From contig CACZXN010000015.1 of NCBI GenBank assembly GCA_902785075.1, positions 1 through 49,721 on the forward strand: a stretch of 49,721 nucleotides of DNA, written 5' to 3'. The notes under the pieces are model-generated. The model searched no databases, was not told the origin of the DNA, and saw nothing but the letters and a program-made list of their open reading frames with translations. This document shows, one piece after another, positions 2,772 through 41,061 of this stretch; position 1 is the first letter of the stretch; the number at the start of each line of letters is the position of its first letter. The position numbers and the translations under genes are program-made. The DNA comes from an uncultured Bacteroidales bacterium. GTDB taxonomy: Bacteria; Bacteroidota; Bacteroidia; Bacteroidales; Bacteroidaceae.

Positions 2772-5700
2772 ATGAAAGCTAAATATATATTCACATCGTT
2801 AATGATGTCGTTCATGGCAATAACTGACATGAATGCTCAGAACAATCTAGTTGTCGTAAAAAACGATGGTTCGCAGCAAACGTTCACTCTGAGCAAGAAG
2901 CCTTACATGCTGTTCACAGACGATAACATACAGATAGTTACACATGATAATCAAGCAGATATCAGCTATCTTGATTTTAACTATTTTTCCTATCAAGGCC
3001 AGCAACAGAGTCGGATGAACGCTATCGTCGAAACAACTGGTGGTATGACACTCCATGAGCTAGAGAACGACCAGAGAGTAATGTTAGGATATGCTTCAAA
3101 AGATATAGTAACTAACAGCTATTCTATGGAATTAGATGAAAAAGGCATTCCTGCCTTTACCAAGAGCTGTAATATCATGGCGAAACATTTGAACGAAGAC
3201 GATCCATATTACAATCGTTTACCTTTCAATTCGTATCTGGATGTGGAACCCACCTCAAGTGCTTCTCAAGCATATATTGCCTTTACTGTTCCTCCAATAG
3301 GTTCGGGAACCTACGATTTATACCTCGTCACCTTGCCTTTGACGTTCACAGACAACGTGAGCGAGGAAGAGGCATCCAAGCCATATCAGTTCCGCGTCAA
3401 CATGTTCTATCATACAAAAGATGGAGGATGGCCCAAAACTCGCAACGAGGTATTGAAGAATCCTGCCGATCCTACAGGCAAAGAACAAAATTACAACAGC
3501 AGCCCAACGGGGGTTGATACCATTTTCCTTGGTACCAAAACTTTTGATGCAGACATAACCCAAAGTCCAAGCATAATGGTTCAAGTTCAAAGCTACGTAC
3601 CGACATCAGAAACGAAGAATTATTCGCGTCGTATGTGCATCAGTGGCTTGATGATGAAGGCACACAATGAGGACTTCTCCGCAACGAAATTCCTCAAATT
3701 CAGCGAAACAATATGGTATTCTCGCAATGATTTGCAGCGAATCAGTTGCATGGATCAGCTGACATTCACCTCAGAGGTGGTTTCCAATGATATCTTATCT
3801 CCACAACTGAAGGTGAACCTGAATGGCACACCTTACTATGCGGATGTGGATTTCTATGGAACCATGCTTACTATAGATGAGAATGGAACAATTTGTATTC
3901 CATACATTCTGTTCCCTGGCTATGACTACATATACACACCATCCCTTTTCGTGGAAGGTACTCCATCCACAATCCGTGTTAAGGATGATACGAGCGGTCT
4001 TTTAGCAACATCCGCAACGATTGATAACGTAGATGTACATGTATCTGCCCAACTATTGGGTATGAAGTCTTTCTGGACTCAGTATGTTAAAGGTAAGCAC
4101 CTGAATGATATCCCATGCTATCGGGTAGGTATTGAGTTGAAGAACACGAAGACAGACAAAGTCTTTTCATATTATGACCCAAAAGAAATCCTTACACGGC
4201 CTGACCAAACCCCTAACTCACTCACTATAACTGATAACATGAAGTATGCTGTCGATTATAAAATATATGAATTAGGGTTCGGCCAAACCTATCAGTGCAG
4301 GGCTTTCTTGGAATATGGGAATTCAACCAATATCTATAGGATGTTGGAAAACAGTCCTCGTTGCTACGATAGCCATCCTGTTGAAATTACCACACCTACA
4401 AGAGAGGAATATGAGAAACAGTTCAAGAAAGAAAACTTGCCTCAGATTATGGCAAACGACGCTTCAATATCATTATTTAACCAAGCGATGGCAGCCACAC
4501 ACATGGGTGAACGTTTAGAGAAATATATTGATGAAACATATAGCCTTTCCGCAGACTCTGTCAATCAGTGGTTCTATTATTCAACAGGTTTGGAGTATGA
4601 TATCGTGGGGTATATGCAAACCCGCTATTTTGGCTACACTGGCTTTGTTGAGCCAAATGAGGTGTTTGCACAACATGGAATCAAAACACTCGATGACTTG
4701 CGTAACTATGCAAAACAGGTCTATGATGAGATGTATCCTGAGGATGCTGGTGTGAAAGACGAAACGGACAGCAGGAATTCGCTCAATCGATTTGTCGCTT
4801 ATCACTTCCTGCCCGAACGAATTGAATATGATAAGCTAACTGCAGATAACATTCTTTTGAGAACTTTCGACCGTAAACATTGGGATGTGGCAGAATGGTA
4901 TGAAACGATGATGCCTTATTCTATCATGAAGGTATCTTATCCTTCAGGTTCAAGCGAGGGTCGCTACGTCAATCGCCGTGGTGTCATGGATAGACCAGAC
5001 TGGAGAGGAGTTTTTGTTGCAGGCGCAAAGATTAAGTCTCCTTCTAAAGCTGATAAAGAATTGGTAGCCATCAATGGTGTGTACCATTATATTGATGATA
5101 TCATTGACTATGGTCGCAACACACAAGAAGTCGTACTCAATGAGCGAATGCGTATAGAAGCAACCACACTTTCACCTGACTTTATGACAAGTGGAGCCCG
5201 CGGACATGCAGTAGTTGGAGTAGGAGGCGTTTCTTCTTATCCTGGTCAATATGGAAGCCAAAGTAGCTCACCTGACCCTGATATGAACCCAAATCACTGT
5301 ATAGGATTTAAGCGTGGTGCTGCTACCAACTTTGCTTTCACACCAAATACCCACTTACATGTTCGTAACCGTAATCTTTGTTTCTGGTCATACCAAGGCG
5401 ACGAAGTATTAATCTCCGGCCATTTTGATGTCACCGTTAAGATACCGCCAGTACCAGCAGGCGTATATGAGCTCCGTATAGCAACCCTTTTAGGTTTTCC
5501 CAATAGGGGCATCGTTGCATTCTATCTGGATGGAAAGCCTTGCGGACTTCCTATAGATTTGAGAAAAGATGGTGTTGATCCGTCAATCGGTAACAAGCCA
5601 GACTCAGATCTTGGAGATGACGAAGCAATTGCTGCTTATGACAAGGCTTTGCATAACCGTGGCTGGATGAAAGGGCCTGCTTCCTATGGAAATATTAATC

Positions 5701-13160: not shown

Positions 13161-13195
13161 CCCCTAGGGGTAACAATATTTTCCCTTAGGGGGAA
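13161..13195. promoter_or_regulatory. Pair of phased CCCTAGGG-type palindromes
   Basis: CCCCTAGGGG (13161-13170) and TTCCCTTAGGGGGAA (13181-13195) have centres about 21.5 bp apart. The first is about 65 bp upstream of the PI-PLC -33 box and the second about 115 bp upstream of the transporter promoter, so they could act on both genes. The same motif class recurs at 40871-40927. Confidence 0.6.
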
Positions 13196-29030: not shown

Positions 29031-29085
29031 TCGGCATTAACATATAGCATAAGCATAATGCGGAACAATACGAAGGACACACACA

Positions 29086-29189
29086 AAATCGAGCTAGCTC
29101 GATTTAAAAAAGTCCTAGCTCGTTTTCAAAATGAGCTAGCTCGATTTAAAATTGACCTAGGACTTTTGAGCAATCGACCATGGCCGATT
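29086..29189. repeat. 21-bp-phased array of five CTAG-type palindromes
   Basis: Palindrome centres are at 29095.5, 29116.5, 29137.5, 29158.5 and 29180.5: three gaps of exactly 21 bp and one of 22. The sites are AAATCGAGCTAGCTCGATTT (perfect), a hybrid of AGTCCTAG and CTAGCTCG, ATGAGCTAGCTCGAT, TGACCTAGGAC, and ATCGACCATGGCCGAT. It lies between two convergent genes, after the terminator of the plus-strand gene and before the menA stop, not at a promoter. The right half CCTAGGACTTTT recurs at 40875. Confidence 0.8.
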
Positions 29190-29212
29190 TTTAATTCACC
29201 AAGGCAAATTGA

Positions 29213-30097
29213 TTAAGCCGCCACCATTGCTCCAGCCAGCAGCAATCCGTATAGGAATATGTTACGAGCTGTCTTGCCAAGAACTCCATTGAGAGCCTTA
29301 CCATCGAGGTGGCACATCTTGTACCACGTCATAATATTGAGCAGGAGGTAACCAAGCATGAACCAATATGGCTTGTCCATCATGTAGAGGGCAGTCATGC
29401 CAAGGATGGTGGCAATGATTCCGCACCAAAGGTAAGCCCTGAGACCAAACGTGCCGCCCATGCGCACGATGATAGTCTTCTTTCCGCTTATCGCATCCTG
29501 ATGTCTGTCACGATAGTTGTTTACGATAAGCAGGTTGTCCGTAGCAAGTCCCATTCCAATACCTGCTAAAGACAAAGGTAGCGTCCAACCACCAGTCATA
29601 ACATAATAAGTGAACCCTACTGGGACAATGCCAAAAAACAAGAGAACCAATATATCACCCAACCCCAGATATGAGAATTTGATGGTATAGAGAAAACACC
29701 CTAACACACAAGCAATGCCGACAATCAACAACTCCCATCGCTGGGAGACGAACAATATCACCAATCCTACCAAACAAGCAAAAATGGTACAAATGCCTAT
29801 TCCACACTGCATCGCCTTTGGGGTAATCCACCCTTGAGCACAAGCACGCTCCGGACCAAGACGATCTTCACGGTCTGTTCCTTTTTTGAAGTCGTAATAA
29901 TCGTTTACCAAATTAGCATCTATTTGCATAACAACAGCAAACAAAAGGCAGAGCATTCCGCTCCACCATGCATAAGAAGTTAGTTGAATACTATCGGTAT
30001 AAGCTAACATTCCTCCAACCAACACAGGTGCAACAGCTCCAGTCAATGTTTTGGGGCGTGCAGCCAACACCCAGGCTTTCAAACCATTAGTTTTCAT
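29213..30097 (-). CDS. menA: 1,4-dihydroxy-2-naphthoate polyprenyltransferase
   Basis: 294 residues. A UbiA-type membrane prenyltransferase with the first Asp-rich motif NDYYD at 65-69 followed by KKGTDREDRLGP, and the second in NNYRDRHQDAISGKKT. These bind the prenyl diphosphate through Mg. It prenylates 1,4-dihydroxy-2-naphthoate in menaquinone synthesis. About eight transmembrane helices cover the rest. The first 11 bases overlap the 3' end of the MORN gene, so the two are probably on one transcript. Confidence 0.93.
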   Translation of the reverse strand: MKTNGLKAWVLAARPKTLTGAVAPVLVGGMLAYTDSIQLTSYAWWSGMLCLLFAVVMQIDANLVNDYYDFKKGTDREDRLGPERACAQGWITPKAMQCGIGICTIFACLVGLVILFVSQRWELLIVGIACVLGCFLYTIKFSYLGLGDILVLLFFGIVPVGFTYYVMTGGWTLPLSLAGIGMGLATDNLLIVNNYRDRHQDAISGKKTIIVRMGGTFGLRAYLWCGIIATILGMTALYMMDKPYWFMLGYLLLNIMTWYKMCHLDGKALNGVLGKTARNIFLYGLLLAGAMVAA

Positions 30098-40870: not shown

Positions 40871-41013
40871 CCCCCCTAGGACTTTTTTTCCTTTCCCCTA
40901 AGGGAAATTGTTTTTTCCCCCAAGGGTATTTTATATTTCATACTATGAAACATACATTTCATACTTTGAAACGTACGTTTCATACTACGAAACTTACATT
41001 TCGTAGTATGAAA
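40871..41013. promoter_or_regulatory. Seven-member palindrome array, 21-22-bp pitch
   Basis: Centres lie at about 40878, 40900, 40922, 40943, 40964, 40985 and 41006. The first three are CCCCTAGG-type (CCTAGG, CCCCTAAGGG, CCCCCAAGGG). The last four are exactly 21 bp apart: TTTCATACTATGAAA (40936), TTTCATACTTTGAAA (40957), TTTCATACTACGAAA (40978), TTTCGTAGTATGAAA (40999), each with at most one mismatch between the arms. The six-base gaps are CATACA, CGTACG and CTTACA. The array starts about 9 bases after the likely transcription start of the HU-like gene. Confidence 0.85.
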
Positions 41014-41028
41014 CATAAATTTCCCCTT

Positions 41029-41061
41029 GCAAAGATAACAATTTCTCCTAACTCCTGCAAC
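41029..41061 (-). promoter_or_regulatory. Promoter of HU-like gene
   Basis: Minus strand: GTTG (41058-41061), 20 bases, TATCTTTGC (41029-41037). The palindrome array follows immediately downstream. Confidence 0.8.

Follow-up and report, generated by a model that had tools for sequence, protein, structure and literature searches.

Phased palindrome arrays upstream of HU-winged-helix genes and their proposed role as private binding platforms

Introduction

Why do seven short palindromes stand at a pitch of 21–22 bp between the promoter and the start codon of a gene for an HU-like protein, and which protein would read them? The locus lies in a window, by which we mean the whole analysed stretch of 49,721 nucleotides, from an uncultured Bacteroidales bacterium whose genome is designated G000 here. 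The encoded protein is a member of the HU-HIG proteins with a C-terminal winged helix (HU-wHTH). To our knowledge, HU-HIG is an expanded and largely unstudied family in Bacteroidetes. Work by Burroughs et al. in 2017 on the clades of the HU superfamily reportedly predicted a role in mobile-element recognition for the Bacteroidetes expansion; compared with that role, the arrays described here lie on the chromosome of the host, among them those in the leaders of the HU-HIG genes themselves. No target site for the HU-HIG family was found among the matches listed in our literature searches.

Architecture of the Window Array

The coordinates of the array, its promoter and its gene are collected in Table 1. 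The four 15-bp TTTC..GAAA palindromes, read directly, have their centres at 40943, 40964, 40985 and 41006 with a pitch of 21, 21 and 21 bp; one of the four is perfect about its central base, and a single arm pair is mismatched in each of the rest. The CCC-class sites, centred at about 40922, 40900 and 40878, follow at a pitch of ~21.5, 22 and 22 bp; none of them is a perfect palindrome, as one or two pairs are mismatched in each. The array is placed between the promoter and the start codon of the HU-wHTH gene, and it is flanked by genes for HU-HIG and luxS. On the minus strand, 20 nt separate the TTG from TATCTTTG, an arrangement which we take to be the Bacteroidetes promoter consensus, and the array would begin ~10–13 nt downstream of the likely transcription start.

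Table 1. Positions of the array, promoter and gene features within the window
Feature	Position	Strand	Basis
HU-wHTH gene, 209 aa, PF18291 HU-HIG + C-terminal winged helix	40194..40823	-	ORF, Pfam, model, Foldseek
Predicted promoter, -33-like TTG	41058..41060	-	sequence; consensus
Predicted promoter, -7-like TATCTTTG	41030..41037	-	sequence; also kept in G004
wHTH-class palindrome 1, promoter-proximal, TTTCGTAGTATGAAA	40999..41013	.	sequence
wHTH-class palindrome 2, TTTCATACTACGAAA	40978..40992	.	sequence
wHTH-class palindrome 3, TTTCATACTTTGAAA	40957..40971	.	sequence
wHTH-class palindrome 4, TTTCATACTATGAAA	40936..40950	.	sequence
CCC-class site CCCCCAAGGG, imperfect; proposed site of glycine-rich HU-HIG paralog	40917..40926	.	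sequence; class found in paralog's leader
CCC-class site CCCCTAAGGG	40895..40904	.	sequence
CCC-class site CCCCCCTAGGA, imperfect	40871..40881	.	sequence
Further CCC-class array, two sites at a 22-bp pitch	13161..13192	.	

The arrays were scored by a motif-blind detector, which combines three palindromes with the likeness of neighbouring units at spacings of 20–23 bp and for which 18 served as the working threshold. On re-reading, the seven centres of the preliminary description, the last four of them exactly 21 bp apart, were recovered with a score of 30.75, compared to a median of 9.0 for 450 overlapping window tiles, and none of 1800 dinucleotide-shuffled window tiles reached 18 or more.

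Other stretches of the window also scored. At 960–1040, three GTCCCATATTGGGA-type palindromes at a 22-bp pitch (score 24) lie upstream of the promoter-like TAACTTTG, and this is perhaps the array of another HU-HIG protein. At 29085–29215, about six palindromes at a 21-bp pitch, with GAGCTAGCTC, CCTAGG and CCATGG centres (score 23.25), are located between two convergent ORFs. Two AT-rich places, at ~618 and 46334, scored 18.0 and 19.5 without a convincing motif by eye and are likely to reflect low complexity.

The Encoded HU-wHTH Protein

The gene product reaches 53 bits for PF18291 HU-HIG in Pfam, above the cut-off of 26.2, and is therefore a member of that family; the NCBIfam model HU_rel TIGR01201 was not reached (57.6 bits vs a cut-off of 68.6). 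A structure model built with 44 homologues (mean pLDDT 88.4, pTM 0.56) has a winged helix C-terminal to an HU-type domain. The best Foldseek match of the model is 4fmr (BVU_2165 of Bacteroides vulgatus), the solved example of the HU-HIG proteins, followed by HU/IHF, and its C-terminal part matches winged-helix proteins such as CzrA. These results are in agreement with the HU-like fold joined to a winged helix that had been read from the sequence initially. Between the window gene and its orthologue in G004, dN/dS is 0.10 at a dS of 1.15.

Arrays Upstream of HU-wHTH Homologues

Forty-five HU-wHTH homologues of one GTDB family were compiled, 19 from one search and 26 among more than 100 matches listed. 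One gene cut by a contig end (L049) was left out throughout, and another (L086), whose upstream region is too short, was left out of the 43-gene comparison. In that comparison, a score of at least 18 was obtained for 37 of the 43 upstream regions and for no control region among 175 drawn from these loci (control maximum 16.5), where the 43 cases are not independent because several of the 45 homologues form near-identical pairs. When the spacing was left free between 15 and 28 bp, exactly 21+21 was chosen in 37/43 regions. Moreover, 40 of 44 upstream regions exceeded all of their own dinucleotide shuffles (60 each), the four others being L050, L083, L087 and L094; no array is present upstream of L087.

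The homologue leaders carry very different palindromes at the same pitch, for example GTTGCACGACCTGCAAC, TTCGTGGGCGACGAA, AATCCACACTGTGGATT and ATCCTTAGGTTAAGGAT. The leader motifs of paralogs differ from each other, and species of one genus have differing motif sets. Private sites at the protein's own promoter, as expected of an autoregulated protein, were thus found by sequence comparison, and the link between array and HU-wHTH gene, which had been proposed from the window together with a search of relatives for similarly preceded genes, is strongly supported by these upstream regions. The dispersal of the arrays through the genome, described below, had been considered as an argument against a link with the HU gene and was dropped once the leaders of the homologues showed arrays. 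In contrast to the HU-wHTH genes, all ten short HU genes that share the MSIRYRL... start scored under 18 (highest 17.2); three of them, in AT-rich sequence, score 16.5–17.2, above nearly all control regions.

The position of the array relative to the predicted −7 box was determined for the 40 genes with an array: it is downstream in 20, upstream in 18 and overlapping in one, and one gene has no called box. The preliminary description had assumed that binding would block elongation; such a roadblock cannot be general because 18 of 40 arrays are upstream of the predicted −7 box.

Motif and protein divergence were compared by Mantel tests with 2000 permutations for 40 genes with a scored motif. 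Motif distance tracks protein distance, with r values of 0.44 for HU, 0.37 for wHTH and 0.41 for the recognition helix, and for each protein part none of the 2000 permutations was as high. When only the 759 pairs that share less than 50% HU identity are considered, the highest r (0.27) is that of the recognition helix. The partial r is 0.29 for HU given wHTH vs 0.14 for wHTH given HU, and the winged helix is not singled out as the site-reading domain in these 40 genes. The correlation fits a matched evolution of motif and protein and is partly due to shared descent.

The CCC Class and Other HU-HIG Genes

The presence of two motif classes in one array, pointed out in the preliminary description, could be explained by a second HU-HIG paralog that has the CCC class in its leader. 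The hypothesis that a glycine-rich HU-HIG paralog owns the CCC class was set before the leaders were read, and the glycine-rich HU-HIG gene of the window's genome (G000:C47) was then found to carry CCCCTAGGGG and CCCCTTAAGGGG, 22 bp apart, after its promoter. A further HU-HIG gene of this genome, G000:C87, has an array of its own (score 20.2), and the leader of another, G000:C4, has none (12.0).

Among HU-HIG genes of other types, 5 of 17 score at least 18, so that the rule is weaker than for HU-wHTH. The motif AATCATACGTATGATT occurs at 22 bp before G004:C11 and G012:C2, and GAGAAACATAGTTTCGC at 22 bp before G007:C78, all of which encode proteins with glycine-rich tails; TACGATTAGTAATCGTA occurs at 23 bp before G065:C11, which encodes a 149-aa protein without such a tail. 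The strongest score of the five (36, pitch 23) is that of L229, which has no long tail, and a tail is therefore not needed for an array. In G004, one motif of the 22-bp arrays near gene ends that are described below, GAAATTACGTTTC, is recognisable by eye upstream of a glycine-rich HU-HIG gene, G004:C15, and also upstream of the related G012:C15; neither reaches the threshold (detector scores of 17.2, on other sites, and 13.5).

Copy number of glycine-rich genes is a separate observation. In G091, a glycine-rich HU-HIG gene is present in many similar copies, some of them shortened (L221–L227), with TCGACCATATGTTCGAG-like leader motifs in several. In the window's genome, similar pieces of such a gene are found at the contig ends of G000:C47, C56 and C29 (L162, L159 and L165), and the gene may be multi-copy there, breaking the assembly.

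Dispersed Arrays in the Genome of the Window

An array exclusive to the window gene was ruled out, since the genome has eight arrays of the same type, of which seven consist of four sites and the eighth of two. For the C50 paralog the motif gives 16 arrays and for the C23 paralog four, and for each of these wHTH types one array is the gene's own leader. Dispersal was searched for three of the four HU-wHTH paralogs (C96 was left out), and all three are dispersed. The CCC pair pattern, with up to two mismatches, matches 104 positions vs none in a reversed-pattern control, and all four motifs searched recur between genes. A strict pattern showed the array at 10 of 15 loci, and a later scan found it at all of them. 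Isolated single sites are also present: three have the motif of the window gene and one has that of C50.

The two motif classes are combined throughout this set. Each of the 28 wHTH-type arrays is accompanied by one or more CCC sites (up to one mismatch) at a fixed register, which is −18/−19 or −40/−41 on the left and +8/+9 or +30/+31 on the right, compared to 554 of 5600 shuffled flank pairs (9.9%) with a CCC site anywhere; in 13 of the 28, CCC sites occur on both sides. The fixed register means that the phase continues across the two motif classes. With respect to genes, 27 of the 28 lie outside ORFs of at least 150 aa, and by automatic ORF calls their neighbours are tandem in 12, convergent in seven and divergent in nine cases, the C7 array looking convergent by hand and being tandem by those calls. 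The initial local reading holds in its link of array and gene, but it was too narrow and missed this genome-wide set, a quarter of which (7/28) is placed between convergent genes.

Sister Species and Other Genomes

In the nearest orthologue, that of G004 with 80% identity, the promoter is retained and the four sites stand in register with scattered substitutions, and the CCC part of its leader has diverged. Loss of the array in a close relative that keeps the gene, which had been named at the outset as evidence against the proposal, is therefore not seen in this species. With the pair pattern at up to two mismatches, the only match in G004 is its own leader, and no dispersed copy of the window type was found, where more decayed copies would escape the pattern. 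Five element sites were compared, and at just one of them, C1, are both flanks found together in G004; no array is present there (68 bp vs 417 bp of unaligned sequence). G004 has other 22-bp arrays, close to gene ends whose homologous counterparts adjoin window-type arrays.

Of 17 genomes of the genus and 399 of the family, that of the window was in both sets the single one with the exact pair pattern, and a widely shared motif was thus rejected; viral contigs contained none. Four loci came from a species collection in which the records of the window itself may be absent. At L043 (~5214–5461, yak MAG RGIG9956), a four-site 21-bp array precedes a stretch which, by eye, resembles the beginning of an HU-HIG gene and then runs into stops, and we regard the locus as a relative with its array before a gene remnant. 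At L041 the match falls within the first part of an ORF and appears to be a chance hit, L040 has no HU gene among its listed ORFs, and L042, the fourth locus, was read by eye.

A leader-motif pair pattern that fits several leaders, with up to two mismatches, was run on eight genomes. It matched 37 positions in G107, 37 in G133, 10 in G001, 9 in G146, 8 in G022, 1 in G004 and 22 in G000, with no match in the reversed control of each, and 13 positions in G399 vs 11 in its reversed control, a count that does not rise above background in that genome. Dispersed arrays are present in three genera other than that of the window (G107, G133/G146 and G022), and a leader array is among the listed places in G022, G133, G146 and G004. 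Two of the 37 positions in G107 were read, and they are a dispersed array (L237) and a leader (L243). In G133, nine dispersed arrays and the leader were oriented on the third site; all have a TTCCAAA-like site there and most have TTCTTTA at the left edge, which suggests that they are copies of one module. In addition, a stretch of approximately GTTAACGATTTTAGTTGACTACTTTT was noticed beside arrays in two genera, at L247, L249, L250 and L252 (G133) and at L206 (G004).

Proposed Mechanism and Alternatives

The array, its register, the motif of each gene, the dispersal and the composite order are read from the sequences themselves. Our preferred reading, with a probability of about three in four, is that the window array serves as a private platform for binding the HU-wHTH protein of the adjacent downstream gene, beside sites of a second HU-HIG paralog, and self-binding of the protein to its own array is well supported by comparison. 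A homodimer, with an HU body and two winged helices, would read one 15-bp palindrome, and successive dimers 21 bp apart would fall on the same face of the helix as a short phased row, which the glycine-rich HU-HIG protein would extend at 22 bp. In the leader, such a row would limit the expression of its own gene, which amounts to negative autoregulation. Where arrays with this motif stand between other genes, the proteins would bind as well, and such arrays would most likely act as chromosome-structuring or insulating nodes. More broadly, and as a tentative proposal to which we would give somewhat less than even odds, HU-HIG proteins could be site-specific nucleoid proteins, many with a private address that consists of an own-promoter array and dispersed arrays, and the composite rows in fixed register could form a combinatorial chromosome code that is rewritten between species.

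Part of the same evidence could be read differently. An HU-wHTH protein that acts as a transcription factor, for which the dispersed arrays are ordinary operators regulating the neighbouring genes, would account for the array at its own promoter, for the near absence of arrays from ORFs of at least 150 aa (27/28 outside) and for the 9 divergent and 12 tandem placements given by automatic ORF calls. However, the 7 convergent placements are roughly what promoter-blind placement would give, by a rough and uncomputed expectation, and the flanking ORFs are functionally mixed by eye, so that we regard this explanation as unlikely. A structured RNA in the leader, either an attenuator or a stability element, in place of protein-DNA sites would agree with a folding energy of −64.1 kcal/mol vs a shuffle mean of −30.95 (z −8.9), but strong folding is expected from neighbouring palindromes, dispersed copies occur in any gene orientation, and no Rfam family reached its gathering score in the window. 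The placement of 18 of 40 homologue arrays upstream of the predicted −7 box and the 21-bp pitch, which corresponds to two helix turns and is retained with unrelated motifs, also count against an RNA-only reading, and it appears very improbable.

It is also conceivable, albeit rather improbable in our estimate, that the arrays are mobile or selfish repeats which spread through the genome, using or tolerating HU-HIG promoters, and whose dispersed copies are useless to the host. The common third site and, mostly, the common edge of the G133 arrays are what module copies would show; the C1 site without an array in G004 and the variation of motif sets among species of one genus point in the same direction. 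On the other hand, the linked gene encodes an HU-fold protein whose Pfam scan, run for this gene only, is without a transposase; the 21/22-bp phase is exact and two motif classes keep a fixed register; and the leader array is retained in G004, where no dispersed copy of its type was found. Spread and a binding function are compatible with each other.

Relation to Known Systems and Perspectives

REP and REPIN elements are 20–40-bp hairpins, and the associated RAYT protein is a Y1 (HUH) transposase, whereas the sites described here are 15-bp palindromes in phased arrays of mostly three or four, and the protein is an HU fold with a winged helix for which the Pfam scan gives HU-HIG only and no Y1 transposase. 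Plasmid iterons are direct repeats bound by winged-helix Rep proteins; they resemble the present arrays in a pitch of ~21–22 bp and in the gene for a winged-helix protein adjoining the repeats, but the repeats here are palindromes dispersed over chromosomal contigs, and no replication initiator is beside them. The parS sites of ParB are dispersed palindromic chromosome sites. They share with our arrays the palindromes, the presence of several per genome and a chromosome-organising protein, which is the proposed reader here, but the present sites form phased arrays instead of single sites, their motif varies by species and paralog, and the linked gene is HU-HIG and not ParB. Unlike in a CRISPR array, the repeats vary and the spacers are 6 bp. 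The arrangement of REP/REPIN and RAYT, a gene beside its private palindromic repeat with copies dispersed between genes, as described in PMC2817692, PMC3116915 and PMC3733652, is shared by the present system. REP sequences have GTAG or CGTC tags (PMC3733652), expected at one end of the hairpin, and no such constant tag was noticed when our arrays were read by eye. Passages of PMC5771137 concern other repeats.

No description of such arrays was found among the literature matches listed, from a search outside of which preprints and most subscription papers lie, and the earlier statement that no published description of this architecture was known agrees with those matches. The single parts belong to known kinds, namely self-operators, helix-phased sites and dispersed palindromes, and we are aware of no system in which they are combined like this. 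None of the known kinds considered accommodates the system as a whole.

These findings propose DNA targets for HU-HIG proteins gene by gene, so that their function becomes directly testable, with each gene predicting its own sites. They also provide a natural series in which DNA-reading proteins are paired with their sites and changes of specificity can be studied, and they account for one type of short palindromic repeat found between genes in these genomes. Collectively, most of the examined HU-wHTH genes carry their own palindrome code by the promoter and the same code recurs between genes in several species, which suggests that these gut bacteria may possess a self-controlled, address-like system that organises or regulates the chromosome.
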